The notes beneath the pieces are model-generated. The model saw only the letters and a program-made list of their open reading frames with translations. It was not told the origin of the DNA and made no database searches. From Ramlibacter rhizophilus (GTDB lineage Bacteria; Pseudomonadota; Gammaproteobacteria; Burkholderiales; Burkholderiaceae_C): DNA of 64,000 nucleotides. Both the position numbers and the translations under genes were made by a program. The stretch covers positions 1-64,000 of the forward strand of contig NZ_SMLL01000005.1 of NCBI RefSeq assembly GCF_004681965.1, in the 5' to 3' direction. Positions 42,876 to 62,339 of the stretch are shown piece by piece. Positions within the stretch are counted from its first letter, which is position 1; the number at the start of each line of letters is the position of its first letter.

Positions 42876-42944
42876 ATGCCGACGACCATCAAGCAAGCCG
42901 ACCTGATCGAATCCATCGCCGCCGCGCTGCAATACATCAGCTAG
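42876..42944 (+). repeat. Island left junction 1: first 22 fumarase codons ending in a stop
   Basis: An ATG followed by 21 further codons identical in protein sequence to the start of the fumarase at 62272, then TAG created at the junction with the island. The upstream sequence (including GGATTATTA near 42840) differs from the fumarase promoters at 44250 and 62141, so this may be the original chromosomal start. It now encodes at most a 22-residue peptide. Confidence 0.9.
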
Positions 42945-43001
42945 GTCTGAGATTGGCGAAAGCGTCGGCCGGGGCTGCGTTCATCGCAGCGCGATACCTG
43001 C

Positions 43002-43601
43002 TCATTTCGAATCGCGTTTCGCCTGCTGCTGCCTTCCGCGCGAGGAGACATGTGCCAGTGGCCGCTGCTGTCCCATCGCCTGTGCCCGCTTGGCGTGCGG
43101 CGTGGTAGCGGGGCTCTGCGTCGCGGCCTTGCTGGCAGCGGCGCTTCGTGGTCCGTCGCTAGGCGCCTTGCTGCTGCGGCTTGCTTGAGGCTTGTCGCTG
43201 GTGCGACTCCTTGCCTTCGACTCCACTGCGAGGCGAACGGCGGATCGCACGGTCGTCTTACGTCCAGGCTTGCTGGCGGCTGGCTTTTCGGAATGTCGTT
43301 CGCGTTGAGCCTGCTGCTTCTCCAAGCGGCCAAGCGCCTCGGAAAACACCTGCACCTTCTGATCGGTCCGAGCGTTGGCGACTCCGCTGCGGCCGGATTT
43401 CGTCCCACTCCGCTCCCGCGTCGATACGCGTTGACGCCGCAGCAGGTCCTGGTACTTGTCACGCTCATTTCGAGTCCGCCGTATCGTGGCCTGCAGTTCC
43501 TTGTCGGCCATCTGCGGCGCCTGATCGCTCAAGCTGCTTTCGAAGAGTGCCATCTCCTTGGTGGACAGCAGGCGTGCTGCCTGGATGCGGTTCCATGCCA
43601 T
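43002..43601 (-). CDS. Basic, coiled-coil protein of unknown function
   Basis: A 199-residue protein. Residues 1-110 are helical and charged (ARLLSTKEMALFESSLSDQAP, IRRTRNERDKYQDLLRRQR). The C-terminal 90 residues are low-complexity, rich in Arg, Lys, Ser, Ala and Gln, suggesting nucleic-acid binding. I do not recognise the family. Start at 43601 after the AGGAGATTC site. Confidence 0.7.
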   Translation of the reverse strand: MAWNRIQAARLLSTKEMALFESSLSDQAPQMADKELQATIRRTRNERDKYQDLLRRQRVSTRERSGTKSGRSGVANARTDQKVQVFSEALGRLEKQQAQRERHSEKPAASKPGRKTTVRSAVRLAVESKARSRTSDKPQASRSSKAPSDGPRSAAASKAATQSPATTPHAKRAQAMGQQRPLAHVSSRGRQQQAKRDSK

Positions 43602-43737
43602 TGAATCTCCTGTTCTGTTGTCGAGCCATCTCAGATTGCCACCATAGGGCGATGCGGCGCGCAGGAGTGGCGGTTGAGTCCACGTGGGTGACGTCCCACG
43701 CACAGCTTCTGCCGATCGAACGGCCGCCCAAACTGCC

Positions 43738-43908
43738 TCACTTCTGCTTCGAGCGGGTCAGCTTTCGCCACAGCTGACCGAGCAGACCGCCCGGCGGGAT
43801 TTGTTCCCGGTGCTTGGCCCATAAAGCGTTGGACCATCTGTCGGCCGTAATGAACAGGGCCACAACGACAACCGCCAGTAAACATGCGCCGACAATTTCA
43901 ATGATCAT
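43738..43908 (-). CDS. Small single-pass membrane protein
   Basis: Fifty-six residues from the ATG at 43908: one hydrophobic helix (about 3-21, VGACLLAVVVVALFITA) followed by a basic cytoplasmic-type tail ending RKLTRSKQK. A longer frame to 43995 exists but adds an implausible leader. Unknown function. Confidence 0.55.
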   Translation of the reverse strand: MIIEIVGACLLAVVVVALFITADRWSNALWAKHREQIPPGGLLGQLWRKLTRSKQK

Positions 43909-43977
43909 GAAGCGCGTTTTATATGAAGACGGCCGCTGGGTGACGATGTTTGCAAGGCGCTTGTGCGCGGCCACAAC

Positions 43978-44238
43978 ATGGCCGGGCATCCCCATGCGTC
44001 ACGGGCTGGCGGGATGGCTGCCCACGTGGCCTTCGGCGCAAGAACGGCAGTCCTTGGCGTTGTGCTGTTCGTTGCTGGCATCCAGCTCGCAGCTCGAACG
44101 GGTGCACTTCCTGCGAGTCGCAGGGGCGGGATCGTTGTCCTTGTCTGTGCTGCGCTTTGCATCGGGAACGTTGCAATCGGCTTCGTCGTGGGGCTCGCAC
44201 TGGCCGTTCTGAGCAAGCGAGGACTGCTGCATCTTTAG
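43978..44238 (+). CDS. Putative membrane protein
   Basis: Eighty-six residues with two strongly hydrophobic stretches (AVLGVVLFVAGIQLAA and VVLVCAALCIGNVAIGFVVG) and a basic C-terminus. It overlaps no other convincing gene and ends just before the second fumarase 5' copy. The start codon (43963 or 43978) is uncertain. Unknown function. Confidence 0.5.
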   Translation: MAGHPHASRAGGMAAHVAFGARTAVLGVVLFVAGIQLAARTGALPASRRGGIVVLVCAALCIGNVAIGFVVGLALAVLSKRGLLHL

Positions 44239-44249
44239 AGCTGAGCGCG

Positions 44250-44466
44250 CCCAGCCGTTTTGTGCTGATTTGTGCAGGTGCGCAGCGTCGCAGCAGCGTG
44301 GCCCCGAGCGTTTGAAGTGCCGCCGAAGCGTGGCGGAAGGCGCCTCGACAGCCTTTGGGATAATCCCGCCCTGCCCCACCACACCGCCGGAACCCGCATG
44401 CCCACCACGATCAAGGCCGCCGACCTCATCGAATCCATCTCGGCCGCCCTGCAGTACATCAGCTAA
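44250..44466 (+). repeat. Island junction 2: fumarase promoter region plus 22 codons ending in a stop
   Basis: Bases 44250-44397 align with the region upstream of the intact fumarase (62141-62271), including CAGCGT, GCAGCAGCGTG and a CCTTTGGGATAAT block that carries a GATAAT -10-like hexamer. The ATG at 44398 opens 22 codons of the fumarase (one amino-acid change, several silent changes), closed by TAA at the junction. This looks like the right end of one element joined to the left end of the next. Confidence 0.88.
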
Positions 44467-44570
44467 GCCTGAGACTGGCGAGAGCGTCGGCCCAAGCGGT
44501 ATGGGCCAGCGTGTAGGGCAGCGTGCAGATAGTGTGCAACAGTGCCGGTTTTGACGGGCGCCGGCGAGAA

Positions 44571-44942
44571 CTAGCTTGTCACCGCCATGCTGCTGATGAA
44601 ACCGGCAGCAAGCAGCGCTTCCAGCGCCACGCTGGAGAGAATGCCGGGCTTCGCTCGCTTCGCGATCAGCTCGAAAATGCCAATGAGGGCTAGCAAGCTC
44701 AGCGCAACAGCAAATCCTGCAGCGATGCCCCACCGCGCTTCGGGTGCTGACGTCGCTCGCACCATGAGCAGCAACGCCGCGAGGCCAAGATAGATGCAGC
44801 CGATTCGCCTTCCAATCAGCAACCCGGTTGGGCTAGGTTCAATTCCCCAGCGACGCAACAGAAGGCCCCCAGCGAACAGCCAAGCCAAGCCCAGGAGAAT
44901 TGCCGCTACTGCGGTGACGACAGCAATGGTGGAAAAGGACAT
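44571..44942 (-). CDS. Four-helix membrane protein, unknown
   Basis: A 123-residue protein with four predicted membrane helices (about 5-29, 43-62, 71-94 and 99-120). No signature motif that I recognise. ATG at 44942; composition resembles chromosomal genes. Carried between junctions 2 and 3 with the EthD and hydrolase genes. Confidence 0.75.
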   Translation of the reverse strand: MSFSTIAVVTAVAAILLGLAWLFAGGLLLRRWGIEPSPTGLLIGRRIGCIYLGLAALLLMVRATSAPEARWGIAAGFAVALSLLALIGIFELIAKRAKPGILSSVALEALLAAGFISSMAVTS

Positions 44943-45153
44943 GAGTGACGATCCGGCTGCAGTTCACCAGCATTGTGGGCTGCTCGGACCAGTTTGCAAG
45001 TGGTGCGGACGGGTTTGACGGGAGCGTGGGGACGCTGCGGAAGCCGCTGCTTGGGCATTGCTGATGCCTGGGCCGCACAGCCGGGCGCGTGCACTGTTTG
45101 GGCAAGTTGCGCCGCGCACGGCCGGCGAACATTTTCCTGGGCAGTCCGACCGC

Positions 45154-45474
45154 CTAAGATCGCTCGATAACCACCTCGCTGACCTGCATGAGCGGCTGGA
45201 TGTCCGTGTAGTTGGGAATGTCCGCCATAATTTCTTTCGCGTGCGGACCGAAGGCCGTTTGAAAGCTGTCGACCGACTCGCAAAAGATGTCGCATCTGCC
45301 GACGTACACAGGCTCGGAACCAGGGGCTCCCCCGGCGATTCCCTTGTCAACTGTGTAGTAAAGGCATGCATCACCCATTCGACGCTTGACCAGCGGCATG
45401 TGCTTGTCCCGGTAATACGCATGGTCGAACCGGGCCCCCTTCGAATGAGGGTACATGACGCTCACCTTGATCAT
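45154..45474 (-). CDS. EthD family protein
   Basis: A 106-residue ferredoxin-like dimeric barrel protein of the EthD family: start MIKVSVMYPHSKGARFDHAYYRDKHMPLV (positions 1-29) and end DIQPLMQVSEVVIERS. EthD was found with ethyl tert-butyl ether degradation; homologues occur in catabolic and polyketide clusters and their activity is usually unknown. Divergent from the alpha/beta hydrolase. Confidence 0.9.
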   Translation of the reverse strand: MIKVSVMYPHSKGARFDHAYYRDKHMPLVKRRMGDACLYYTVDKGIAGGAPGSEPVYVGRCDIFCESVDSFQTAFGPHAKEIMADIPNYTDIQPLMQVSEVVIERS

Positions 45475-45646
45475 GGCATGTTCTCCTTGGAAACGAGCCA
45501 GGATAGGCAGCCAGCAAGCGCCGCAGTATCGGGTTTACCTGGGGTCGGCGTCGCCTGCACATTGCAAATACTCCGGGCTACCCTCCCTTGAAAAAGCGCG
45601 GGTCGCCGGCTAGCGCCCAGCACCAGCACAGGAACGAGGTTCGCTC

Positions 45647-46432
45647 ATGTTTCTGCAGATCGACGGACACAAGATTTTCGCCCTTAGCTTCGGAAGCGGG
45701 GAGAGGACGCTTTTGGCGCATGGCGGCTGGATCAGCAACTTCGAAGACTGGATTGACGTCGTTGCCCTGCTAAGTAGCTCTTGGCGCGTCGTGGTGTACG
45801 ACCACCGTGGTTCCGGTGAATCGCCCGTTCCAGTTGAAGCGATCACGTCCGAAAGTCTCGTTGACGATGTTTTCCGCGTGATGGACGCGATGCAGATCGA
45901 CCGCTGCATCTTGGGCGGCTTTTCGCGCGGGACGGCTACTGTCCTGCGCGCCGCCGTCCAGCAACCGCAGCGGTTCGACGGCTTGGTGCTCTTGAACGGG
46001 CATGGGGAGGTCCGCGACCCAAGCTTGCCCGTTGCGACTCGCATCGCTCCGTCCAAGTGGCCAGGCGAGACACACGAAGAACACTTGCGCTGGTTTATCG
46101 AGCGTTGCACGCCGGAAGAGGACGTGGATCACATCCGGCGTTGGGGCATGCACATCCTGTTCCGCTCCCCACCCGATATTGCCGATCGATTGTTCATGGT
46201 GGAATTTCAGGACAAGATCGACTGGCCAACCCGACTGGCTACCTTTTCCCTGCCGACGCTGCTGATACACGGGCAAAAAGATGCCCTGTTCGATGTGCGT
46301 AACTTCCACTACTTAGACTCGCTACTGCCGAACTCCAAATTCGTAGAGTTGGAGGGAAGCGGACATCTACCGGCCATGGTGCGACCCAAAGACGTTGCCC
46401 ATGAGATCAAGACGTTCTTCGAACGGACCTAA
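45647..46432 (+). CDS. Alpha/beta hydrolase
   Basis: A 261-residue alpha/beta hydrolase. Oxyanion strand HGGWISN near 26-32, nucleophile elbow GGFSRG (serine about 93), acid in HGQKDALFD (about 208-216) and histidine in GSGHLPAM (about 244) form a complete triad. It resembles serine esterases and haloperoxidase-like hydrolases; substrate unknown. Probably cargo of the second element, with EthD. Confidence 0.9.
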   Translation: MFLQIDGHKIFALSFGSGERTLLAHGGWISNFEDWIDVVALLSSSWRVVVYDHRGSGESPVPVEAITSESLVDDVFRVMDAMQIDRCILGGFSRGTATVLRAAVQQPQRFDGLVLLNGHGEVRDPSLPVATRIAPSKWPGETHEEHLRWFIERCTPEEDVDHIRRWGMHILFRSPPDIADRLFMVEFQDKIDWPTRLATFSLPTLLIHGQKDALFDVRNFHYLDSLLPNSKFVELEGSGHLPAMVRPKDVAHEIKTFFERT

Positions 46433-46462
46433 ATCGACTCCCCAAACGGGCTTGGAACCACT

Positions 46463-46510
46463 CAGTACATAAGCTAAGTCAGAAGTCAGCGGAAGCGTCA
46501 GCCCAAGCGG
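46463..46510. repeat. Island junction 3: degenerate target core plus left-end sequence
   Basis: CAGTACATAAGCTAAG differs from the target core at one base and is followed by GTCAGCGGAAGCGTCAGCCC and CAAGCGG, homologous to the island-end sequence after junction 2. No fumarase coding sequence precedes it, so the right end of the neighbouring element is lost or was never there. Confidence 0.75.
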
Positions 46511-46654
46511 CTTCGGCCAGCGTGCAGCGCAGCGTGCTGATGTTGTGCGGAGGCCGCGCGTACGCAGTAAGCTGGCTATACGACCCGAGCGCATCGCGCG
46601 AAGCCGGCGTTAACGACACAGGCTGGTGTGACGGATGCGTCATGAAAGCTGCTT

Positions 46655-46834
46655 ATGTCTGACACCATTTACCTCATCAACGGCGTCATCTATCAGATAG
46701 CGAGTAGGGATGCCCATCTTGTCGTTCTGACGTTGGTGGATGATCCGCACGACAACAGCCCGCCCGATCAACTGGAATACGACTCGAATGAGTTCGACCG
46801 AAAGATTGCGGCAGGTGATATTTCAGTAATGTGA
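46655..46834 (+). CDS. Small acidic protein
   Basis: Fifty-nine residues (MSDTIYLINGVIYQIASRDA at the start), acidic, no signal peptide or membrane helix. It resembles short island proteins with a beta-strand core. The stop overlaps a GTG that could start the next gene (ATGTGA), so coupling is possible. No family recognised. Confidence 0.55.
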   Translation: MSDTIYLINGVIYQIASRDAHLVVLTLVDDPHDNSPPDQLEYDSNEFDRKIAAGDISVM

Positions 46835-46854
46835 AAAAAGGCGCTGGAGCAGAC

Positions 46855-47256
46855 ATGGCGAAGCTCGGGATCAATGCAGCTTTCGCAGCGTACGGCGCCG
46901 TACTCAAAAATCCGCAATGGTCCGTATCCGCTTGGACGCCCTCAGGCGAACTGGTCGTAAGTCTTTGGGACCACCACTTCCGTAAGGGAGCGCCACCCGG
47001 AATGATGGACTTTGCTGATTCCTTTGCTCGGTGGTCGGGGCATGGGAACAAGGAGTTCCGGGAGAACTTGAGCAAGGCGTATGCTGCGGAAAGTCGCATT
47101 CGCTTAGTAGTTGCTAAGACGGATCAGATTGCGCATGTTGAAGCGGGGGAAGATGCGAGCAAGATTGGCAAGGAGTTCTTCCTGCGCGATGATCTGGTCG
47201 GCTTGGTCCACGAACTTACTGCCGATCGCTACGTCATTCGGTTCAAGCGCCAGTAG
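46855..47256 (+). CDS. Hypothetical protein, paralogue A
   Basis: A 133-residue soluble protein, closely similar over its whole length to the protein at 47714 (shared NPQWSVSAWTPSG, LVVSLWDHHF, APPGMMDFADSF and the ending DRYVIRF). An alternative GTG start at 46831 would add eight residues, but the equal length of the paralogue favours the ATG at 46855. Function unknown; conserved aromatic and histidine residues suggest a binding pocket. Confidence 0.8.
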   Translation: MAKLGINAAFAAYGAVLKNPQWSVSAWTPSGELVVSLWDHHFRKGAPPGMMDFADSFARWSGHGNKEFRENLSKAYAAESRIRLVVAKTDQIAHVEAGEDASKIGKEFFLRDDLVGLVHELTADRYVIRFKRQ

Positions 47257-47378
47257 TGTTCTCGCCCACGACTGTGCATGGCCACTCCATTCACATCGTG
47301 ACCGGAGCGTGCATCGTCTGCTGAATCCGTGCAACAAGGCACAGTCCTGCACATCTCTGCTTCGTATACAGTAGAGCT

Positions 47379-47711
47379 ATGAGCTGGCTCAAGATTCAGA
47401 TTGCTGCGGCACCCAAGCTTGCTCTTCTTGCTGGACAGTCCTTGTTCGCGCTTGGCGGCTTTCTGATCGTCAGCGGCTTAATCGGTCGGGTCACCACCAC
47501 CGCAATCAACTCAAGTCGTAGCCTCAGTAAGCTTCCGGCCCTGACTGGCTTGAGAGAGGCTTTCCCGACATACGCCTTGTGGTGGGTACCGGAAAGCCTG
47601 CTTGGCTACGCGCTCCCCGGGTTGCTCGCCATCGGTGGCATTTATGTTGGCCAGCCAGCCAAGCAGCTGCTGCAGGCACGGCGGACCGCGTTGAACAAAC
47701 GGCGCAGGTAG
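47379..47711 (+). CDS. Two-helix membrane protein
   Basis: A 110-residue protein with two hydrophobic segments (about 14-36 and 73-91) and a basic C-terminus (RRTALNKRRR). It lies between the two paralogues, and its stop is only two bases before the GTG of paralogue B. Possible membrane partner of the paralogues; inference from position. Confidence 0.65.
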   Translation: MSWLKIQIAAAPKLALLAGQSLFALGGFLIVSGLIGRVTTTAINSSRSLSKLPALTGLREAFPTYALWWVPESLLGYALPGLLAIGGIYVGQPAKQLLQARRTALNKRRR

Positions 47712-47713
47712 CC

Positions 47714-48115
47714 GTGGCAAAGCTCGCGATCAACGCCGCATTCGCAGCCTACGGCGCAACGCTAAACAACCCCCAATGGTCAGTTTCAGCGTGGACACCT
47801 TCGGGCGATCTGGTTGTTAGCCTTTGGGATCACCATTTCCTGCCCGGCGCCCCGCCCGGCATGATGGACTTTGCTGACTCGTTCGAACGTTGGGCTGGGC
47901 ACGGGAACAGAGAGTTTCGTGAGAACGTCGCCCGCGCTTTGGCCGCTGGAAGTCGCGTGAGAATGGTCATCGTCAAGACAGACCAGATTGGACGAGTGCA
48001 GGCCGGAGAGGTCGCGAGCAAGATCCGCAAGGAGTTCATCCTGCGCGATGACCTCGTAGGCTCAGTCCACGAACTCACCGGCGATCGCTACGTCATTCGG
48101 TTCCAGCGTCTGTAG
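47714..48115 (+). CDS. Hypothetical protein, paralogue B
   Basis: A 133-residue duplicate of the protein at 46855, differing mainly by conservative changes. GTG start at 47714 directly after the stop of the membrane protein, giving exactly the paralogue's length. The two 402-base genes are diverged enough that the duplication is not recent, or they came in separately. Confidence 0.78.
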   Translation: MAKLAINAAFAAYGATLNNPQWSVSAWTPSGDLVVSLWDHHFLPGAPPGMMDFADSFERWAGHGNREFRENVARALAAGSRVRMVIVKTDQIGRVQAGEVASKIRKEFILRDDLVGSVHELTGDRYVIRFQRL

Positions 48116-48562
48116 CGGGCCCGAATGGCGTGCGGCACTGTAGCTCGAAAGATCCAGAGAATGGGGGCTACACCGCCCAGGAGGGGAGGCAAATACCTCA
48201 AGAAGGACGGGCTGGGCGTCTACCACACGCTGCAGTCGCTCATGAGCTTCCGAACACGTGGGGCGACGGCTAGCTGCACATCAACGTACAGGCGGCGTCA
48301 CCATCAACAAGCAGGAGTGGAAGACCACCGTGACTGGCACCGCGTCATGTTCTACGGCGACGACACGCGCTACGACCTGCAGATGCACCCCATGGGTGTG
48401 GCGAGAACACCTAAAAGGAATACGTATGGGCTACAAACCTGACCACTGATGTGCCCATGTCTGCTGTTCACCTACATTGATGACAGGGGCCGACTGACAG
48501 ATGAGCAGCGGGGTGGACGACGCCTGCCAGGGACAATGCTGTGCATGCGTTGGAGGAACCCC
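48116..48562. other. No convincing gene; decayed coding sequence
   Basis: Several overlapping short frames exist in both directions but none has a clean start, membrane signal or family motif. A segment around 48360 (GACACGCGCTACGACCTGCA) recurs as a near copy around 49130, suggesting remnants of a duplicated gene. Confidence 0.4.
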
Positions 48563-48679
48563 ATGCCCAAATTCGACTGGCACAAGGAGCACCCCGGCTG
48601 GAAGCTGGCCGCATGGGCGCTGCTGTTGACGCCCACCATCCTGCTCGCGGCGGCAGCGCTCCTTAAAGCCCTCAAGTGA
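48563..48679 (+). CDS. Thirty-eight-residue membrane peptide
   Basis: A short protein starting MPKFDWHKEHPGWKLAAW followed by one membrane helix rich in leucine and alanine. GGAGGA lies six bases before the ATG, an excellent ribosome-binding site, which supports real translation. Unknown function. Confidence 0.6.
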   Translation: MPKFDWHKEHPGWKLAAWALLLTPTILLAAAALLKALK

Positions 48680-48781
48680 GTGATCTGCTCGCGGGTAGCG
48701 GTCCGGTGCTCTTCAATGGACCACGACGACGCCTGTCTGCCGGTGCAGAGATGAGTCGTCATACGTGGCACACCGATGGAC

Positions 48782-49114
48782 CTACTTGGTGAACTGGAAA
48801 TTGGCGCGGTAGGTCGATCCATCTTTGAACTTCATCGCTAACTGCCGGCATCCAGTCCACTTCTTGTCCGTCTTCCAAACATACGTGTATTGCATGGTGA
48901 GCGGATCGTACTGAAGTCCCGAACTACCAGCAGTGTTGACCGTTTCTTCAACGGGATCTACTTCCCCACCGGTACAATTCGTTGTGACTGCCTGCGGAAC
49001 ACCATCAAGGATGTCCATGAACATCCTGCGCATCACGGCCACACAGCCGCACAGGAAGATGGCCGTGAGCGTCCAGCCCCTGTTCAGCATCAAGCACGAC
49101 GACCCGCTGCCCAT
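48782..49114 (-). pseudogene. Remnant of a PxKF-domain surface protein
   Basis: The last 65 residues (GLQYDPLTMQYTYVWKTDKK, CRQLAMKFKDGSTYRANFQF) match the C-terminal end of PxKF domains, beta-sandwich modules usually found at the C-terminus of larger secreted proteins. The part before them is not recognisable and there is no signal peptide. Probably the surviving end of a deleted gene. Confidence 0.55.
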
Positions 49115-49544
49115 CTACAGCAAGGACAACACGCGCTACGACCTGCACGGCCAGGCGAATGTCCATTTTCTCTTGAGTTCAAATAAAAGGTCACCTGTGT
49201 ACCTTGGCAATGACTTACGCACCATTCGTACCAGTGTGAAGAACATCACCTAAGCTCTTGTGGCATCTGGTCTTTCTTGCCACATAGCCATAGCTGTTCT
49301 ATTGTTACGGTGCTCGCTGATGCCCACACTCAGGTGGCTGCCAAGTCAAGAGACATTCTTTTTGAACGGCATTGCTTGACCTCTTGCCAAGAATTCGGGA
49401 AACATAGAAGGCACTGGTCATTCACACCCTTTGGTTGCGAACTTCTACTTCAAGCTGTAGACAATGGTGATTCACCAGCTCTGGCGGAAAGACTTTCACT
49501 TCAGTATCCGCGAATAGTCGCCATCCTCATGGCGAACTTTCAAT
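49115..49544. other. No supported gene
   Basis: One 117-codon plus-strand frame (49277-49630) spans most of this stretch but has no start context, no recognisable family and overlaps the end of the minus-strand membrane gene. I see no promoter or repeat of note. Confidence 0.4.
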
Positions 49545-49793
49545 TCATGTTGGCTCGTGCCTTGCGCTCGGCCCCGCTGCTTGAGGCTCAACAGCGGACC
49601 TTTTTCCAAGCCGGTTCACCGCGTCAATGATGCCCCCGCCCGAAATGCAAATGGCGCCTAGTACCATGAACATGAGTGCCTCGATCTCGTGAATAGCGCC
49701 TTTGGAAGCGCCAAACACGCTCAGACCAGCGATAAAGGCTACCGCTCCGATGATGTATAGGAAGAAGGCCAAGGGGCCATCGTAAGACACCAC
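49545..49793 (-). CDS. Small two-helix membrane protein
   Basis: Eighty-two residues with two membrane helices (about 6-27 and 37-58) joined by a short polar loop and followed by a charged tail. The pattern is typical of small inner-membrane proteins. No family recognised. Confidence 0.65.
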   Translation of the reverse strand: MVSYDGPLAFFLYIIGAVAFIAGLSVFGASKGAIHEIEALMFMVLGAICISGGGIIDAVNRLGKRSAVEPQAAGPSARHEPT

Positions 49794-49877
49794 GTGTAAA
49801 AAGCGTAGCCTGAACAGTTAGTAGTTGCCCTAAGAAGCCCCGTACCTTGTCGCCACCTTGGTTCCGAAGGTTGGCGC

Positions 49878-50237
49878 CTACGTTGCTTGCGCAAAACCGC
49901 TCCTGACCCACGCCAGCCCTGCTGCTACTCCCCACAAGAACGCAGGCGGCAGCACCAGCAACATTCCGAACCGCACCCAGTCTGGAAGTGCTGTGTATGG
50001 GTACTGGGGGCTGCTTCCATGCTTAGTCAGCCAGTTTGTGTCAAACAGAGCAAGGGGATCACTCACCCAATACCAGAACACATAGCCACAATAGTCTCTA
50101 CCGCCGTATTCAACCCATGGCCCGAGGCCACAACCCAAGAGGTGTACCCGCTCCCAAGCAAAGAGGCCTACCACCGCTAGCAGCCAAAGCGTCGTGGCAA
50201 ACACTCCAAGTCTGAACCAACCTCTACTCATGTTCAC
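49878..50237 (-). CDS. Two-helix membrane protein, last gene of a three-gene operon
   Basis: A 119-residue protein with helices at about 9-28 and 86-110 flanking an aromatic, cysteine-containing extracytoplasmic loop (CGLGPWVEYGGRDYCGYVFW). The start overlaps the stop of the Rap1a-like gene by four bases. Unknown function. Confidence 0.7.
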   Translation of the reverse strand: MNMSRGWFRLGVFATTLWLLAVVGLFAWERVHLLGCGLGPWVEYGGRDYCGYVFWYWVSDPLALFDTNWLTKHGSSPQYPYTALPDWVRFGMLLVLPPAFLWGVAAGLAWVRSGFAQAT

Positions 50238-50554
50238 TTAATCCCGGCGCGTTGACGCAGCTCTTCGTAAAGCTTGTACGTACCGTCGTGAATGTTCTTC
50301 AGCGGATTGGCTTTGCAGTAGTTGTCCATCCAGAGAAGAACTTGATCCCCTTTAACTCCGCGCAGAGGGTCTTCTTTGACTTCGTGCCGAAGCGCCGAGT
50401 TGAGGCCGCTGATAAACCCTAGCAACCACCAGCGGTGCCCCGTAACGTCCTGCCGGACCCACGTGCCGCAGTCAGGAACCTCATAAGCCAGCGCAGCTTG
50501 GGCACTGCCCACGCTTGAAAGTGCGAGACCTAGAATGAGCGCCGCTGCTTTCAT
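50234..50554 (-). CDS. Exported Rap1a/Tai-like protein
   Basis: A 106-residue protein with a Sec signal peptide ending AQA and a small helical mature domain (W..GFISGLNSAL, VLLWMDNYCKANPLKNI). This pattern resembles the Rap1a/Tai family, which includes immunity proteins of type VI effectors, but many members have no such context and no effector is visible here. Second of three overlapping genes. Confidence 0.65.
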   Translation of the reverse strand: MKAAALILGLALSSVGSAQAALAYEVPDCGTWVRQDVTGHRWWLLGFISGLNSALRHEVKEDPLRGVKGDQVLLWMDNYCKANPLKNIHDGTYKLYEELRQRAGIK

Positions 50555-51750: not shown

Positions 51751-51759
51751 TCTCGTAGT

Positions 51760-54117: not shown

Positions 54118-54218
54118 CCACTCTGCAACGCAGCGTCATTCTTTTGTTGATTCATCATGCAGGTGAACCAATCATTGGCTATACGGCGATTGCGCCGCGT
54201 TCCACAGGTGAATCGAAC

Positions 54219-54644: not shown

Positions 54645-55833
54645 CCCGAAAAGCCGGCGTAACCGTTCGTGGCTTGCCATCCCTATCGGACGATCTCTCG
54701 CGCGGTGCTGTCGTTGTGTCGTTCCTCGTGAGCATCATCCGTCCGTCTGCCATCCATAGACAAAGCCGTAGGGTGAAGAGGACGGAACGGACGAACTTGG
54801 CAAGCGCCTGGAAAGACCTGACGAATACCATTGGTAAGTACGACGACCACCTGACACACTACGGCGATCATGAACAGAGTTCATGAAGCTCTTGAAGGAC
54901 TCCGTGATGATCTGGGAGACATGACACGTAAACACGTGAAGCTACGACCAGACGAAACGAGCAGAAAATGCAGACTGCTTGTTCCAGCGCTTTGCGCCAT
55001 CCGTACTACCTTCGCATCCCTAACCAACTTATCGACCGAGTTTTCATCTAGCTGGCGCTACGGAGACTCCAAGCTGCATGGGCAGTGCAGCAACTCCGGT
55101 TGTCTTCACCCTTTTCAGGAGGTCGTTTACTGATCGCATCGGGAGAACGCGATCACCTGCGGCTTTGTTATTTTCCAGGCTGGTTGCAAGGTCGCTTTAC
55201 GGGTCATATGCCAGACCGTTTTGCACAGAACCACCTTGCGTGGAAACTGACCCCTATTGCCTGCACAGCAGTCAGGATGGACTGCGTTCGGAAGTGCAAC
55301 TACCGGCAGCAGCGATCAGGTCGAAAAGGAAGAAGCCCCGTGACGGATCATGCATCACGGGGCTTCACATCTATGAGCGCACTGCATGTGCTCACCGCTG
55401 AAAACTCACGCAACCATGATCGCTGCTTGCAATCTATTTAGCAAACGGCTACCAACGACGCTTGCCGAGTCAACCTGCACACGAGCCATCCCGGCGTCTG
55501 CTTAAAGTACGCATTTCCTACGGAAATCCGCTCAACTCTGCACGAATTCTGCGCAAATACAATTCATTCACGGAGACCGCATGCCTTCTGGCTTGGCCGC
55601 ACCCATTTAATACAGCTTATATTCCATGGCACCGCTTTCTATTTTCGTGAGTCGCGACCCACATGGGGTAAGCGCAGCGCCAATCGGAGCCAACGCCGGA
55701 GTGACCGCCCAAGCTGGCGTTGCTCACATGATGCCTGGCTGACAGCGGCAGTGTTGGCTTTCGCTTAGATTACGAGCAGATTTGCCGGATTAATCGTACA
55801 ATAAAGATCCAGGCTCCTATGCGAGAATCGATT
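54645..55833. other. Gene-poor stretch
   Basis: Nearly 1.2 kb with only short overlapping frames (for example 54674-54886, 54870-55133 and 55462-55650) that lack ribosome-binding sites and family motifs. It contains one strong inverted repeat at 55332-55366. It may hold decayed genes or non-coding RNA; I cannot tell. Confidence 0.45.
55332..55366. terminator. Perfect 12-bp inverted repeat, terminator-like
   Basis: Arms GAAGCCCCGTGA (55332-55343) and TCACGGGGCTTC (55355-55366) enclose an 11-base loop. The stem is G+C-rich; no long T-tract follows on the plus strand, though AAAAGG precedes it (giving CCTTTT on the minus strand), so it may act mainly on minus-strand transcripts. Confidence 0.55.
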
Positions 55834-56085
55834 ATGGCGGTTGTAATAAGCGTTGAAGAGCAGCGCCTCATCAACGGAAATTCAGAGCTTATTTCGAATG
55901 ATCCAGTTTACGACGAGTTTATAGACTGGCTGGGCTCAATGGGGTTCCTGTACGTCTACTCAGAGACTAGCGACACGAGCCTTCACTATGAAGTCCACGA
56001 GCTGTTATTCGAGCATGACAGCGAAGCCACCCAAGCCTATCTGACGTGGGGCACTAGGCTCAACATGGAAATGTACAAAGAGTAG
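55834..56085 (+). CDS. Hypothetical acidic protein
   Basis: An 83-residue acidic protein (MAVVISVEEQRLINGNSELI at the start, then DWLGSMGFLYVYSE) without signal peptide or membrane helix. A+T-rich coding sequence unlike the flanking chromosome. An ATG at 55819 is an alternative start. Family not recognised. Confidence 0.6.
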   Translation: MAVVISVEEQRLINGNSELISNDPVYDEFIDWLGSMGFLYVYSETSDTSLHYEVHELLFEHDSEATQAYLTWGTRLNMEMYKE

Positions 56086-56155
56086 TTAGTAACGTTCCAC
56101 GGCCACTTAATTGCAGGGCGTTCAGACTGCTTGACTCCGCTTGAGCTGAACCGCG

Positions 56156-56356
56156 CTACGAAACTGGCGTGCGGTTGATCTTAGAGAGCGTCTCTTGGCT
56201 ACGCTTCTGCTTCAGTCGAAGGTCGGCTTGCTTGGCAAGCTCCTTTTGCCGCCTGGCATTCTTCAGCTGCACTTGCGCGCGTTGCTTTTGCGCCTTAATG
56301 GCCTGCTTTTCCGAATCGACTGCTTCGGAGAACGTTGCAAATTCGTAGTATCGCAT
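56156..56356 (-). CDS. Small basic coiled-coil protein
   Basis: Sixty-six residues starting MRYYEFATFSEAVDSEKQ, then a lysine/glutamine-rich helix (AQKQRAQVQLKNARRQKELA). It resembles small phage or island proteins. GTAAATAC direct repeats surround its upstream region. Function unknown. Confidence 0.6.
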   Translation of the reverse strand: MRYYEFATFSEAVDSEKQAIKAQKQRAQVQLKNARRQKELAKQADLRLKQKRSQETLSKINRTPVS

Positions 56357-56429
56357 CGGGTAAATACCTCCACCAGTATTTACCCGGCGAGCACATGCGA
56401 AACGTTCACCCGCTGTCTTCGTTTAGCAG

Positions 56430-56543
56430 CTACTCGAACAGCTTGATCAGCAAACCCAGCGCAAACAAGCACAGGAACAGCTTGAAGGCGGCGGTCAACA
56501 GCCATTGCATAAAGCGCAGCAGGTGCGGCAGCAACACGATCAC
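56430..56543 (-). CDS. Putative 37-residue membrane peptide
   Basis: A GTG-initiated frame encoding an almost continuous hydrophobic helix (IVLLPHLLRFMQWLLTAAFK, LFLCLFALGLLIKLF). No ribosome-binding site is obvious. Such peptides are common near integrases in islands, but this one is weakly supported. Confidence 0.35.
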   Translation of the reverse strand: MIVLLPHLLRFMQWLLTAAFKLFLCLFALGLLIKLFE

Positions 56544-56576
56544 CGCGACTTAGAATAGGAGGCGCTGCATGTCGGG

Positions 56577-57652
56577 TTACCTCACGACGGATAGCTTCGG
56601 AGCGGAACTGCCCTTCCCGTGCGCCTGCTGCATGCCGTCAAGGACGCGGGCGGCCTTCTCCGCGACTGCGCCGGTCTCTACGTGGCTGTAGACCATCGTG
56701 GACTGAATATTCTTGTGCCCGAGCAGCCCTTGCACTTCGACCAAAGACATGCCGTTCTGTAGCATGCGCGACGCGAACGTGTGGCGCGCCGTGTGCAAAG
56801 TAATCTTGCCCGCATCACCGGAAATGCCGGCTCGCTCAAGTGCATTTCGCAGCCAAGAATAATTATTATTATGGCGGCGCTTGCTAGGGAACACCCGTCA
56901 GCTGCTTCGGCCTTTCAACGCGAAAGCATCGCTTCGAGCTGATCGCTCATCACGAGCGTATTGTCCACACCGCCCTTCTGCCGGTGGATTCGGAGCTTGC
57001 GTCTTTCCAGGTCTACTTGGGCCCACGTCATCCGGGCGATCTCACGATACCGACAACCCGTATGGATCAGGGCCAGGAGGAGATCCGTGTTGTCTTGCCG
57101 CGCTTTGTCCGTCCTGGTGCACTTGCCGGGGTACTTGGCCTTCGGATCAATCGCGGCGAACAAGGCCGCCTCTTCTTTCGCAGTCAGGTACCGTAGCCGA
57201 GTCTTCTCCGGGTACATGCGCGGGAGCTTCACTGCGGTCGCCCACTTCCGTTCCTCCGCGAACTTCACGACCGCGTTCCAGTAGCTGACGGACACGACTA
57301 GCGTGTTGCGGGACACGCCAGCATCGCGTCGCTTCTCGATGACCCCTTGCAGCTGCGCAAGGGTCAAGTCGCCCATGCGTATGTTGGGCAACGCAAGGAA
57401 GTGCCTTAGGTGGACTTGCGCATTGGCGTGCCCTGCCGTCCCCTTCCTTGCGTCAAGAAAGGCCTTGATGACCGAGTGCAGCAGGACGGGCTTGGTGCCC
57501 TTGAGAATGACATCTTTGATCGCTTCCGCTTCCCAAAGGGCTGCGATCTGTTCGGCGAGCTTCTTGTCGCCAGTCTTGGTGCTGCGCGCGAACGTGTGGC
57601 CCTGGACGACTTTGCGCCAGTGCCAGATTCCGTTGCGTTCTGTGAGAGCCAT
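56577..57652 (-). pseudogene. Tyrosine-type site-specific integrase, disrupted
   Basis: A phage-type integrase of about 355 codons. The N-terminal part (57652 to about 56916) has a SAM-like core-binding domain and catalytic arginine in HTGCRYREIARMTW. The C-terminal part (56894-56577) has HTARHTFASRML and LGHKNIQSTMVYSHV with the histidine-arginine pair and tyrosine nucleophile. Between them, SRTGA (a TGG-to-TGA type stop) at about 56915 and a one-base loss about ten codons later break the frame, so full-length enzyme is not expected. It is the likely agent that inserted the island. Confidence 0.85.
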
Positions 57653-58047
57653 TGCATCCTCGATGTCGTTTAACACGACGGAGGATGCGTTCAGGCGGCC
57701 ATGGCATCAACCTGGTCGGCAGAAGTTTTCATCACAACGGAACGGCAGCTGCTAGTTGAGCAGCATGCAGTCCAGTTCATCCACAGCATCAAGGAATTGG
57801 AAGCTCATGGATTCGCTCGCTGCTCGGTCCATCCCTCGCTTTAACTATGGACGGCTGCTCCGCGACTGTCTGACGATCACCTCTCCTGCTTCGCGGGAGC
57901 TCATCAAATGCGTAAGCTTCAAGCGATAGTCCGTGTAAGTGCAGACGCGCACCGCGCGTACTACGCTGCTGATGAGCAAAGCGAGCCTCAACCTTTTAGA
58001 GGCTCATCTACTTTCTGGCCCGACAGAGTTAGGTGAAGGAGTTTTCA
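57653..58047. other. Intergenic region upstream of the integrase
   Basis: About 395 bases with no supported gene. A short inverted repeat near 57978-58006 (GAGCCTCAACCTTTTAGAGGCTC) could be a terminator or regulatory hairpin. Probably holds the divergent promoters of the integrase and the lipoprotein operon. Confidence 0.4.
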
Positions 58048-58164
58048 ATGAAGCTATTGCTGAGTGTCTTTGCCGCAGCGCTCCTAGCTGCGTGTGGGGG
58101 AGGTGGGGAGGAAATCCCAGCTCAGAAGCGTGGCCAGGCCGAACAGGCCCAACGCATCTCTTAA
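58048..58164 (+). CDS. Thirty-eight-residue lipoprotein
   Basis: Starts MKLLLSVFAAALLAAC, a textbook lipoprotein signal with cysteine 16, then GGGG and a short charged tail. GAAGGAG lies about eight bases before the ATG. It is first in a run with 58171 and 58457. Resembles small entericidin-like lipoproteins in size; function unknown. Confidence 0.7.
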   Translation: MKLLLSVFAAALLAACGGGGEEIPAQKRGQAEQAQRIS

Positions 58165-58170
58165 CCAATC

Positions 58171-58446
58171 ATGGAGTTCACTTTGAAAGTTAAATCTCTC
58201 ATCGGGGTGGTTCTCGGGAGCGTAATCGCTTGGTCAGGGAATTCAACATTTGCACAGACTGAAGACTGCAATGCGGTACTAACTCGAGTAGATAGCCTGC
58301 TGGCAATTCACGCGCCGCACTACATGGGAACTGCAATGCAAGCCAAGGCCTTAAGAGACGCTGGCGCAAATCACTGCAAGCTGGGCGAGAACACACAAGC
58401 TGTGAGCGCACTCACACTCGCCGAGAAAATGTTGTCCTCAAACTAG
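58171..58446 (+). CDS. Small exported protein
   Basis: A 91-residue protein with a signal peptide ending TFA and a helical mature domain (CNAVLTRVDSLLAIHAPHYM, AVSALTLAEKML) containing two cysteines. The ATG at 58171 has no clear ribosome-binding site; a TTG at 58183 is preceded by GGAG and is a possible alternative start. Six bases follow the upstream lipoprotein stop. Confidence 0.7.
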   Translation: MEFTLKVKSLIGVVLGSVIAWSGNSTFAQTEDCNAVLTRVDSLLAIHAPHYMGTAMQAKALRDAGANHCKLGENTQAVSALTLAEKMLSSN

Positions 58447-58456
58447 GGAAATAGAG

Positions 58457-60244
58457 ATGCTCAAACACTTAGCTGGGCTCATGCTTGCCTGTGTCATCCC
58501 ATGGCAGGCTAATGCGGCCGTCGTGAATACTCTCCCTGGTGGGACCCCGATCCCCATACCAGCGAACAACCAGATTACGAGCGGACCAGTCGTCACGTCT
58601 GATTTCAAGTGGATTAGTACCCACTCTAACTCAGCGTTTGGTTGGACTGGTGGGTACGGGTTTTGTGACCGAGGTCAGTGGAATACTACACCAATGCTCG
58701 GCTTGAACACGGGCGTTGGTTACATGACCTTGAGTTTTCCAGAACGACGTTCCGGATTCCTTGCTGAAGTCAATTGGGTTGGTGCCTGCAGCAGCTACAC
58801 AACATCCATCCAAGCATTAGATGCGAGCGGAAACGTAATCGAGACGATTAACCTACCCAACAACGCAACTTACTTACCCGCACCCAGCTATATCGGCTTC
58901 TCATACTCCACAGCACAAATAGCCGCGATTCGGTTTTCTGGTGGCTATATAGGTGTCCGAAATATGACGCAGACCGGAGAAGTTCAAGTACCCATAGCAG
59001 ATGCTGGTTCGGACCAAACGGTAGATTCAGGACAACCAGTCCAGTTGAGCGGGCGGGGCTCTAGCCCCAGCAATCTATCGTTGTCCTACCTGTGGAGTCA
59101 GACCGCCGGGCCAGAAGTACAGATAGTCGACGTTAATAACGCATCAGCGTCATTCATCGCCCCAGTCGTGAATGCGAATACAACGCTGACCTTCCAGTTG
59201 ATTGTTAAGGACTCACGCGGAGTTACAAGCCAACCAGACACCGTAAACGTGACAGTTGTCAAGCAGAACAACCCTCCAATTGGTGATGCTGGTGACGCAA
59301 CTGGTGTTCGCGAAGGCGCTACGAAGACGCTCAATGCGAGCGCAAGCTACGACCCTGACGGTGACGCCATCACGTCATACTTGTGGCAGCAGGTTGGTGG
59401 ACCAACAGTCACGTTGAGTCCTGGCGCGAACGTAGTGTCTCCAAGCTTCCTTGCTCCAGTCGGGGGTGGTAGCGTCTCGTTCAAGGTGACGGTCTCTGAC
59501 GGCAAGTTGAGCGGCACGTCACCTACAATCACAATCCCGATCACGGCCAACAACCCACCCGTAGCAAATGCAGGCGTGCCAGTCACCACTGACGAGGGCA
59601 CGCCAGCTACGTTGAACGGTGGCGCAACGACTGATCCTGATGGTGATCAGGTTAGCTTCTCCTGGACGCAGCTTACTGGGCCGACGGTGACGCTCAACGG
59701 CGCAAATACTGCTACTCCGTCCTTTACTGCTCCATGGGTCAACGCAGGGGGATCAACGCTGACGTTCCGTATGACAGCAACGGACAACTACGCTGCGAAT
59801 CCCAGGTCTGCAACGGCAGATGCAACGGTCAACGTGCTGAACGCCAACGATCCGCCCAACTGCTCGCTCGCGATGCCTAGTGTTCCGAAGCTGTGGCCGC
59901 CCGATCACCGCATGGTGCCTGTGACGATCAAAGGCATCACGGATCCCGATGCAACGGCCTTCACGCTCCGCATCACTGGTGTGACGCAAGACGAGCCGAT
60001 CAATGGCACGGGTGATGGTGACACGGCACCGGATGCAACTATCACTGTCGGTGAGAAAGCTGATACGGTGAACCTGCGTTCTGAACGCGCGGGTACGGGT
60101 GACGGTCGCGTGTACACGATCCACTTCCGCGCTACGGACCAGGAAGGTGCCTGTACGGGCTCCGTCAAGGTACAGGTACCGCACTCGCGCACTGGCAACG
60201 CGGTCGATAGCGGGCAAACGGTGAACTCAGTGGCGCAACCGTAA
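58457..60244 (+). CDS. Exported PKD/REJ-type repeat protein
   Basis: A 595-residue secreted protein with signal peptide ending ANA. Residues 20-180 form a jelly-roll-like N-terminal domain. Three PKD-like repeats follow (about 183-270, 275-365 and 368-460), marked by VADAG-type openings (PIADAGSDQTVDSGQPVQLS, VANAGVPVTTDEGTPATLNG) and DPDGD. A C-terminal domain contains PKLWPPDHRMVPVTI, common at the end of such surface proteins. A+T-rich relative to the chromosome. Likely adhesin-like or matrix protein; no enzymatic motif. Confidence 0.82.
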   Translation: MLKHLAGLMLACVIPWQANAAVVNTLPGGTPIPIPANNQITSGPVVTSDFKWISTHSNSAFGWTGGYGFCDRGQWNTTPMLGLNTGVGYMTLSFPERRSGFLAEVNWVGACSSYTTSIQALDASGNVIETINLPNNATYLPAPSYIGFSYSTAQIAAIRFSGGYIGVRNMTQTGEVQVPIADAGSDQTVDSGQPVQLSGRGSSPSNLSLSYLWSQTAGPEVQIVDVNNASASFIAPVVNANTTLTFQLIVKDSRGVTSQPDTVNVTVVKQNNPPIGDAGDATGVREGATKTLNASASYDPDGDAITSYLWQQVGGPTVTLSPGANVVSPSFLAPVGGGSVSFKVTVSDGKLSGTSPTITIPITANNPPVANAGVPVTTDEGTPATLNGGATTDPDGDQVSFSWTQLTGPTVTLNGANTATPSFTAPWVNAGGSTLTFRMTATDNYAANPRSATADATVNVLNANDPPNCSLAMPSVPKLWPPDHRMVPVTIKGITDPDATAFTLRITGVTQDEPINGTGDGDTAPDATITVGEKADTVNLRSERAGTGDGRVYTIHFRATDQEGACTGSVKVQVPHSRTGNAVDSGQTVNSVAQP

Positions 60245-60257
60245 GTTGCGACGTGCT

Positions 60258-60292
60258 GAAGGTGAATGACGCCTGTGGCGTCATTCACCTTC
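60258..60292. terminator. Strong bidirectional hairpin terminator
   Basis: A perfect 16-bp inverted repeat (60258-60273 and 60277-60292, core GGTGAATGACGCC) with loop TGT. It lies 14 bases after the PKD-protein stop, and the end of the convergent LuxR remnant reads into it. Confidence 0.85.
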
Positions 60293-60946
60293 GTGCCGAT
60301 GCGGATTGAAACAGGACTCGTCTCTCGCGCGATGGTTCCATGGAAATCAAACTAGTTAAGTGCTTACCCAACTTCGTCAACACCTCGCGCTGGGAATGGC
60401 AGCCAGTCTTTTGCAGCAATGATGCCAGCTGCGCCCGAACGGTGTACGGAGAGCAAGAGCGTTGCTGAGCAATTGCTTTCACCACCATCCCTTCAGCGAG
60501 TAGGCCGAGCACTTCGGTTTCCGCAGGCGTCAAGCAGCGGTTAGCGGCGAACCGCGCAAGTCGTGCAAATGCGCTCTCCTCCCTCCTTTCACCGTCACGA
60601 GGAACAGACGCCGATCCCGCCGTGACTCATTCTCAAGCAGCCAGCGGGAGCCATAGAAAATGAGGAATTCTTGGTAGTAGGGATCAGAAGCCACGAACCT
60701 CTCGGAGAAATGATGTGGCTCCGCAGAAGGGTGCTTATCAAGCAGCAGAACGAGCAGCCCGAAACTAATTCTAGCCTGGCCCCAGCATCCGTTTGCTCGC
60801 CGATTTGTCGTTTGCATCACATCAGACGAGCTTTCGACGCCTTTTTGGCGGTGGTCGGGGGACTGCGACATGAGTTGACGATGAGTTCGGTGGCTGTTAA
60901 GCCAGCAGCATGGATTGCCCCTCTTGTAATTGACGGCTATGCTCAA
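60285..60946 (-). pseudogene. Decayed LuxR-type regulator
   Basis: The C-terminal part (60533-60285 and preceding codons) is a LuxR helix-turn-helix (LTPAETEVLGLLAEGMVVKA, SPYTVRAQLASLLQKTG). The part upstream, in another frame, reads HHFSERFVASDPYYQEFLIF, a segment typical of the N-terminal domain of the same regulator type as 60982-62088. A frameshift near 60600 and loss of the N-terminal sequence make a working regulator unlikely. Confidence 0.65.
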
Positions 60947-60981
60947 CGTGTTCCAGCCCCGTGTCGCAAAGGGTAGTTAGC

Positions 60982-62088
60982 ATGCCGACTCATCAGAAGT
61001 TGATGGACTCCACTATCTCTGCTTTATATGAGGCCGTATCGCACGATGAGCAGTGGCCCGCGGCACTAGCTGGGATCAGCAGGGCCTTCGACAGTCCGCG
61101 AGTTGCAATCCTTCGCACGACCGCGAACCTCGACGGTGTTTTCGAGATTCGCGCGCTGAACCACGACCCAGAAGCACAAAAGCTGTACCGGGACTATTAC
61201 TGGGCAATTGACCCAACTCTCCGGGTCACGCGGACAGCGCACCCCGGCGCCTGGTTCGACTGCGAGTCGGTAGTGGATCCGGCCACAACGCCCGAACCCG
61301 AATACATGGATTTCGCAGTACGGCACGGAATTCGATACGTCGCGGGCGGCAAGGTGCACGTTGATAAAGTGAGCTGTACGGCTCTTAGCCTGCAGCGTCC
61401 CGCTGACCACCGGCGCTTCGATCACAGCGCCGGATCGACATTCCGGCGACTGGCGACGCACATCGGCCGCGCCTCTGCGTTGTCATCGGATTTGCGGCAG
61501 GCAGAGCTCGCGAAGGGGCTCTCTATCGCCGCTCTTGACGCTTTACAGTGGCCCGTATTCGCCGTCAGTTCGACGGGCAAGCTTCTCCTGGCGAATCAAA
61601 AGGGAGAAGCCCAGCTCAAACTCGGCACGCCATTCGAACTGCACGCTGGGAGTTTGCGGTCTCGTGACCCCGAAATGGATCTGGTTCTGAGGCGGGTTTT
61701 GAGTGCTGCCGCGACCCGCACAGGCACATCTATAAAGGTGAAGGCCGGACGTTCTCAGTGGTGGCTTCGCGCCGTTCCTATCACGATGTATTCCGGGGTC
61801 ACGCTGCTCTACTTGAGCCGAATCGATGGGCAACGGCCCTCGCCGGATCTCATGCAGGAGCTGTTGAACTTGTCCCCTGCCCAAGCTGACGTAGCGTGCC
61901 TTCTTATGGATGGTCACAGCGTCAAGCAGATCGCGAGCGCACGTGCGGTCAGCGTCTGGACAGTGCGAGCCCAGTTGCGAGAGATCATGCACAAGGCCGG
62001 AGTACGCCGGCAAGTTGATCTCACGCAGATGCTTCTGTCGCTACCCGCGATCTCGATGGGCGCGACCAATCAGGAACAAGCTCAATAG
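60982..62088 (+). CDS. LuxR-type helix-turn-helix regulator
   Basis: A 368-residue transcription regulator. The N-terminal 290 residues form a sensory region with GAF/PAS-like character (WPAALAGISRAFDSPRVAIL, DYYWAIDPTLR) and the C-terminal 60 residues a LuxR DNA-binding domain (LSPAQADVACLLMDGHSVKQ, VSVWTVRAQLREIMHKAGV). Ligand and targets unknown. The last gene before the island's right end, ending 53 bp before the copied fumarase promoter region. A GTG at 60961 is an alternative start. Confidence 0.85.
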   Translation: MPTHQKLMDSTISALYEAVSHDEQWPAALAGISRAFDSPRVAILRTTANLDGVFEIRALNHDPEAQKLYRDYYWAIDPTLRVTRTAHPGAWFDCESVVDPATTPEPEYMDFAVRHGIRYVAGGKVHVDKVSCTALSLQRPADHRRFDHSAGSTFRRLATHIGRASALSSDLRQAELAKGLSIAALDALQWPVFAVSSTGKLLLANQKGEAQLKLGTPFELHAGSLRSRDPEMDLVLRRVLSAAATRTGTSIKVKAGRSQWWLRAVPITMYSGVTLLYLSRIDGQRPSPDLMQELLNLSPAQADVACLLMDGHSVKQIASARAVSVWTVRAQLREIMHKAGVRRQVDLTQMLLSLPAISMGATNQEQAQ

Positions 62089-62140
62089 CGCACCTTGGCG
62101 CTCTGGGCGACCCATGCGGCAGTCGCACTCGGTTTGTGCT

Positions 62141-62339
62141 GGTTTTGTACAGGTGCACAGCGTTGCAGCAGCGTGCCCCCAAGCGTTCCAAGTGCCGTCG
62201 AAGCGTGGCACGGCCAGCCCGACCGCCTTTGGGATAATGGCGCCGAGCCCCTCCATCACCGCCGGAACACCATGCCGACCACCATCAAGCAAGCCGACCT
62301 GATCGAATCGATCGCCGCCGCGCTGCAGTACATCAGCTA
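62141..62339 (+). repeat. Island right junction: fumarase promoter and first 22 codons supplied by the island
   Basis: Bases 62141-62271 align with 44250-44397, and the coding part 62272-62339 aligns with the short copies at 42876 and 44398. A GGGATAAT block (62229-62239) is a -10-like promoter element about 35 bases before the ATG. The recombination core CAGTACATCAGCTA ends at 62339, after which only this copy continues into the fumarase. Confidence 0.88.

Follow-up and report, generated by a model that had tools for sequence, protein, structure and literature searches.

The stretch of DNA analysed in this study (the window) comprises the first 64,000 nucleotides of contig NZ_SMLL01000005.1 of Ramlibacter rhizophilus (assembly GCF_004681965.1, hereafter G000), and contains the first 22 codons of the gene for class I fumarase, fumA, three times, at positions 42876, 44398 and 62272 (starts a, b and c). 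The copies at 42876-42941 (MPTTIKQADLIESIAAALQYIS) and 44398-44463 (MPTTIKAADLIESISAALQYIS) are followed immediately by TAG and TAA, respectively, and their frame ends at codon 23, inside an island-end sequence whose block 3' of the stop is common to both; start c opens a 513-amino-acid (aa) fumarase (PF05681 and PF05683), the sole intact fumA found in this 12-contig genome. Starts a and c are identical at 63 of 66 nucleotides, the three differences being all silent, while b and c are identical at 56 of 66, with 7 codons and 2 residues differing. Random substitutions in the same numbers change on average 2.2 (a/c) and 6.8 (b/c) residues, and the probability of obtaining the observed number or fewer is 0.014 and 0.002. 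Start a is also equal at 64 of 66 nucleotides to the fumA start of another member of the genus (G722), and is presumed to be the original chromosomal start. The regions upstream of b and c are homologous and diverged (214 aligned columns, 83%, E 3e-57); the region above a differs, and its alignment with them is limited to about 25 bp immediately preceding the start. The three copies, the mostly silent character of their differences and the homology of the two upstream regions had been pointed out in a sequence-only reading of the window, and are borne out here.

That reading took the interval 42930..62339 for a single island, which had to be given up because a fourth attachment (att)-like end, at 46466-46503, matches at 87% the left end of a related element in a congener (G801). 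We distinguish instead three stacked segments in the interval 42944-62339 (Table 1), of which only 46477-62339 holds an integrase gene, with a broken frame. Segments 1 and 2 have no integrase; segment 1 has both ends, segment 2 only a core at its right end. The G+C content of segment 3 is 0.564, versus 0.705 for window 30000-42000.

Related integrases, with 36-88% identity, lie near fumA in four other genomes: G801, a Polaromonas metagenome-assembled genome (MAG), a Xylophilus MAG and G173, an uncultured beta-proteobacterium. At or above about 35% identity, a line set after the results were seen, 5/5 genomes (these four and G000) have the integrase near fumA and hold a displaced fumA start; all five also have an open fumA frame with a working start. 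Identity to the intact G801 integrase (359 aa) is 80% for Polaromonas, 63% for Xylophilus, 88 and 79% for the two window pieces and 37.5% for G173; the gene is intact in Polaromonas (367-aa frame) and G173 (361 aa) as well, and the family matches are to PF00589 / phrog_1. The displaced frames stop at codon 22 in Polaromonas (one codon shorter), 23 in a, b and G801, 24 in G173 and 29 in Xylophilus. Both ends of the Xylophilus element are on one contig, with the displaced start 6.7 kb upstream and the integrase about 0.3 kb from the working start. The G801 integrase lies 2.2 kb upstream of fumA on the same contig, the displaced start and the left end (87% like window 46463) being on a different one. 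In Polaromonas the integrase is 1.5 kb from fumA; a search for the displaced start located it on another contig, where it ends in TAA, is accompanied by a left end 83% like window 46463 and has fumC, the gene for class II fumarase, just upstream. G173 has its displaced start followed by the integrase, and its working fumA on another contig. A second att-like core with left end was also observed at about 1677-1768 of the Polaromonas locus L173, slightly more than 100 bp beyond the displaced start.

When 399 genomes of the family were queried with the G173 integrase, two had matches at E <= 1e-40, G173 itself and G748. Scanning a named genome collection with a set of three aligned integrases yielded 15 loci. 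Three are at or above about 35% identity (G173's own contig, the Polaromonas MAG Bin2_6 and the Xylophilus MAG, apparently the same genome as G748) and three at 25-26%; the other nine, weaker or partial, were checked for fumarase only. Among 60 genomes of the genus the window integrase piece has matches at E <= 1e-25 in three: G000, G801 (88%, intact) and G791 (31%, on another contig). At the DNA level, the core plus left end, a search pattern that had been proposed from the sequence alone, matched with up to 3 mismatches only the a and b sites in a sample of 399 genomes of the order, 12 of which, G000 included, belong to the same family. A DNA pattern for ALQYIS and a stop likewise matched only sites a and b in the 399 family genomes (zero matches for the reversed-pattern control), and is no census, since G173 and G748 were in the sample and their displaced starts went undetected. 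Of the second fumA-start matches in 14 family genomes, one (G173) is a displaced start with a stop; the remaining ones are in long open frames or near contig ends (G055, G138). A second match in G831, of the same genus, was set aside, as both copies are at contig ends and 1/66 nucleotides apart.

Uninterrupted relatives, which the sequence-only reading had proposed to look for, exist. Stretches of up to about 16 kb upstream of fumA were read in 40 genomes of the genus besides G000 and G801, 42 in all out of 54 with a fumA match of at least 90 bp; in 37/40 fumC (TIGR00979) lies divergent to fumA within the stretch, with a gap of 94 bp in G837, 100 bp in G809, 101 bp in G830, and up to 14.8 kb in G791. 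The first three are uninterrupted sites. A second start was recognized only in G822, where it is degenerate, and in G788, as a chance-like match (E 1.3).

The working fumA of G173 is particularly informative about what the element brings. Its first 63 nucleotides have a G+C content of 0.397 and the 200-bp region upstream 0.43, against 0.642 for the next 1400 nucleotides. Compared with the displaced start of the same genome, 9 of the last 14 codons (to Ser-22) differ, at 12 positions, with no residue change, while 12 substitutions placed at random, in 1500 sets, change 7.4 residues on average and at least 3: this recoded start is a clean natural record of selection keeping a host enzyme intact. 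Between the two starts of G801, 9 codons and 4 residues are different (P 0.0007). The displaced copy ends in TACATCTCGTA (Ser TCG), the working copy in TACATCAGCTA (Ser AGC), from which the exchange can be placed on the right side of codon 22. The displaced Xylophilus start behaves differently, 11 of its 14 changed codons altering the residue, as in unconstrained drift (P 0.17), and a displaced copy can, it seems, decay. The earlier proposal that every copy evolved under selection suits copies that serve or have served the gene, and has to leave room for such decay.

Given the copies, the junctions, the related integrases near fumA in five genomes, the uninterrupted sites and the protein-level constraint on the borne starts, we consider it very probable that a family of integrative elements cuts class I fumA near codons 18-23 and brings a new promoter and start, much as the sequence-only reading had it (a cut after codon 22). 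From these observations we infer a circular form, its excision, the action of the integrase, the order of insertions and the activity of the promoters, which together would work as follows. The tyrosine integrase would recombine at a core (about CTGCAGTACATCAGCTA) spanning codons 18-23 of fumA. In the attachment site of the element (attP), the promoter and the first 22 or so fumA codons would lie to the left of the core, and the left end of the element, which supplies the stop, to the right. Integration would push the host promoter and start far to the left, where the frame soon ends, while the body of fumA would receive the promoter and N-terminus of the element and stay expressed. Later elements would insert at the recreated site beside the gene, so that displaced starts pile up leftward by age (a, b and the bare end at 46466); G000 carries a stack of two segments devoid of integrase and one element with a broken integrase.

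This scheme has close counterparts. The elements found at dusA use a tyrosine integrase. Islands and prophages specific for dusA (Farrugia et al. 2015, PMC4482086; IMEVchUSA3, PMC8409611) insert inside the 5' end of a conserved gene, supply it with a new 5' coding end and promoter, and have semi-conserved direct repeats; a dusA'-lacZ fusion was still expressed after integration, at a lower level (PMC4482086, PMC8409611). The 5'-end insertion, the direct repeats and the element-supplied coding end and promoter appear common to both systems, with the difference that the fumA target encodes an enzyme of the citric acid cycle, a class I fumarase cut at codons 18-23, and that displaced starts are stacked; we do not place the integrases among the dusA-associated integrases (DAI), the gene being fumA in 5/5 carriers. 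The integrative and conjugative element (ICE) SXT likewise enters the 5' end of a coding gene, prfC, and provides a new promoter and N-terminus (Hochhut and Waldor 1999, cited in PMC8409611). Unlike SXT, which is conjugative, the fumA elements have no conjugation or mobilisation genes among the proteins scanned, a set covering part of the open reading frames (ORFs) and with the G801, G173 and Polaromonas elements split across contigs. The stacking resembles the accretion described for cis-mobilizable elements (CIMEs) and integrative and mobilizable elements (IMEs), in which decayed and later elements are stacked at one site (PMC5704250): here too segments without integrase, with att sites, seem to lie beside a later element at the same target, the difference being that the fumA stack is at a 5' end, where every insertion also gives the gene another promoter and start. 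Of the two parallels suggested by the sequence-only reading, prfC therefore holds (PMC8409611), while guaA was rejected, as its elements are listed at the 3' end of the gene in an IME review (PMC5704250); dusA fits. We found no integration in class I fumA in the open-licence literature, which misses most subscription journals, in keeping with the earlier impression that this target is undescribed; related mentions are of prophage remnants in Xylella, located near a tRNA-Cys and flanked by fumarate hydratase and a second gene (PMC2605562), and of fumarase in the context of metabolism only (PMC5027557). By analogy, then, the fumA elements would work in the same way as the dusA islands and SXT at prfC, with fumA as a new target gene.

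Several observations weigh against this scheme, at least in its simple form. The fourth junction at 46466 is not preceded by a fumA start, and neither is the second Polaromonas left end; to account for such bare ends, a secondary site or a subsequent deletion would have to be added. In G173 the integrase lies at the left end, in the other four carriers near the right one, and the architecture of attP is therefore not uniform. Starts a and c are nearly identical and the two Polaromonas starts resemble each other, which calls for gene conversion or a close donor. In Xylophilus the displaced start does not meet a stop before codon 29, and a simple sigma-70 scan found no promoter in either borne region. 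No circular form or excision was seen, and no close match to the G801 integrase was found among phages, plasmids and viral contigs, so that the evidence for mobility of the elements is indirect. Finally, the integrase frame of the window is broken at about 56895-56915, and that of Xylophilus has one internal stop.

A broken integrase, together with the lack of mobility genes among the segment proteins scanned, is what one would expect if an old insertion were simply decaying, with the duplicated starts as relics and the spare promoter as an accident. We regard this as a possible but rather unlikely account: integrases near fumA are intact in G801, Polaromonas and G173, the borne starts are constrained at the protein level, above all in G173, and fumA of G000 now begins in the borne copy, whatever the mobility of the element.

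The distribution of the promoter regions bears on a different question, that is, whether the b/c type is an ancestral host type captured by elements, the start of G000 having been multiplied by recombination or duplication rather than by site-specific integration. Comparison of 40 promoter regions groups b and c with the working copy of G801 and with G826, G097 and G822, through homology that extends past -90, and Polaromonas joins them weakly; homology confined to about -85 is shared by further relatives. The sequence-only reading had named, as telling against it, relatives with an upstream region like 62141-62271 and no island, and G097, G826 and G822 go half of the way: they have this promoter type, and neither integrase nor left end was found there (in stretches of only 5.5 kb for G826 and 5.4 kb for G822); G822 has a degenerate second start. 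The promoter type of these three also weighs against the integration scheme, and it speaks for a host origin, as does the near identity of starts a and c. However, on a 415-bp fumA tree (short, with some deeper nodes weak, and without G822, which was too short) the b/c type requires 4 changes for 4 tips, compared with a mean of 3.9 for shuffled labels; in the nearest groups, whose local support is 0.87 for G097, 0.94 for G826 and 0.72 for G000, the partners do not have the b/c type. Moreover, duplication does not predict what is seen in other genomes, where displaced starts again come with this left end and related integrases. In our judgement this account as a whole, a captured host promoter together with a start multiplied by recombination or duplication, is very improbable, although elements may have captured the promoter from hosts such as G097, G826 and G822. 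Because the type does not follow the fumA tree and is seen neither at the displaced native start of G801 nor at the compact sites, we read the promoters of G097, G826 and G822, with moderate confidence and from sequence comparison, as probable scars left by past elements. Least credible of all is an exchange upstream of the ATG that replaces the promoter only, the left displaced codons belonging to the element: starts a and c, and those of Polaromonas, are so alike that their codons cannot tell the side, but in G173 the AT-rich composition continues from the borne promoter through codon 22 to the core, and in Xylophilus it is the left copy that decayed, not the right.

Sequence motifs within these regions were also compared. 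A GGGATAAT-like box at -60 to -10 is present in 31/40 relatives versus 6/10668 control windows searched with the same pattern, and the exact box in 30/40 versus 1/10668. Its position is -41 in b and c, -40 in the working copy of G801 and -42 in that of Polaromonas; Xylophilus has GGATAAT at -35. The box is missing upstream of the G173 working copy and of the displaced starts a, Xylophilus and G173, while the G801 displaced start retains one at -32. The three most compact fumC-fumA sites (G809, G830, G837) do not have it. Early insertions may have brought the box. Within 220 bp of start b, of start c and of the G801 and Polaromonas starts there are 3-5 arm-like TGTGCAG repeats (background 0.9), and also 3 at the native start of G787 and 0 at the working starts of G173 and Xylophilus; as arm sites of the integrase they are only suggestive.

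The three integrase relatives at 25-26% identity (L046, L047 and L048, from Rhodocyclaceae, Limnohabitans and Comamonadaceae) are not near fumA. A tRNA-Gly(CCC) gene is present in each; a direct repeat lies inside it in L046 and L048, and in L047 a 15-mer search near the integrase found none. The tRNA-Gly gene is a possible ancestral target of the integrase before a switch to fumA. Comparison of the aligned integrases with viral sequences gave 27 viral loci, none near fumarase. The clade, presumably separate from the dusA integrases, was found at no gene other than fumA. More tentatively, and with doubt prevailing, these elements could have rewritten the fumA promoter and N-terminus repeatedly and lastingly, acting as cis-regulatory vehicles, with G097, G826 and G822 still using a borne promoter and the clade having arisen by a switch from tRNA-Gly to fumA.

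These results add a gene of central metabolism to those whose 5' end is swapped by integrative elements. The presence of one integrase clade at fumA and of its distant relatives with tRNA-Gly means that target switching can be studied; whether core genes keep new promoters that mobile elements have left behind can likewise be tested directly in this system.

Table 1. Features of the fumA region of the window.
Feature	Position	Strand	Evidence and remarks
Displaced fumA start a (presumed original), 22 codons + TAG	42876..42944	+	core TACATCAGCTA at 42933-42943; G722 match; upstream without GGGATAAT box
Segment 1, 1.5 kb, CIME-like, without integrase	42944..44465		left end 42944-42970; right end holds promoter and start b
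Segment 1 ORF, 200 aa	43002..43604	-	no family match (Pfam, NCBIfam, PHROGs)
Element-borne promoter region b	44256..44397	+	GGGATAAT box at 44357 (-41)
Displaced fumA start b, 22 codons + TAA	44398..44466	+	core 44455-44465
Segment 2, 2.0 kb, without integrase	44466..46476		left end 44466-44550; alpha/beta hydrolase gene 45647-46432
Fourth att-like junction: core and left end of integrase-bearing element	46466..46550	+	core TACATAAGCTA (46466-46476); 87% over 86 bp to G801 left end
Segment 3, 15.9 kb, integrase-bearing element	46477..62339		inner blocks collinear with G801, 77-83% nt
Backbone protein, 167 aa, phage-type	51760..52263	-	89% over 157 aa to G801; PHROG matches; weak homing-endonuclease match
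Backbone protein, 141 aa	54219..54644	+	84% over 137 aa to G801
Integrase, C-terminal piece	56580..56894	-	79% to residues 255-359 of intact G801 integrase; presumably spans the catalytic R, H and Y region
Integrase, N-terminal and middle piece	56915..57676	-	PF00589; 88% to G801 residues 1-252
Cargo: PKD/Ig-like domain protein, probably secreted	58457..60244	+	
Cargo: LuxR-type regulator adjoining right end	60961..62088	+	
Element-borne promoter region c	62130..62271	+	GGGATAAT box at 62231 (-41)
Element-borne fumA start c, 22 codons + first bases of codon 23	62272..62339	+	core 62329-62339 (right attachment site)
Class I fumarase, only intact copy found in genome	62272..63813	+	PF05681 + PF05683

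As for the cargo, the 200-aa ORF of segment 1 has no family match in Pfam, NCBIfam or PHROGs, and ten proteins compared with PADLOC gave no match to defence systems. The neighbouring window ORFs 46831-47256 and 47690-48109 are 76% identical, pointing to a duplication within the element; the former has no Pfam or PHROG match. Between integrase and fumA, Polaromonas has a cargo gene with a DUF4062 domain (L044, 8703-9119; no PADLOC match) and Xylophilus a short inverted copy of fumA codons 28-65 (L045, 9791-9898). An accessory protein common to G173 and G000 is not claimed (22% identity, E 0.001).

Beyond the elements themselves, the fumC-fumA gap (L120, L124-L163) varies between the extremes given above in the 37 genomes of the genus, mostly without a second start, and is a wider insertion hotspot. 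The fumC of G000 is on contig 1, at 7.2 kb from the contig start. Matches to the G791 gap between fumC and fumA occur both in this stretch of contig 1 and in parts of window 28007-31823, and the window's left part is therefore probably inside a much enlarged gap, the contig join being inferred. Window 32055-39815, which has no blastn match in the G791 gap, seemingly lies inside it too, and holds selB, a tRNA-Sec gene (34013-34107), selA and a molybdopterin/4Fe-4S oxidoreductase pair, which together may form a cluster for a selenoprotein formate dehydrogenase.

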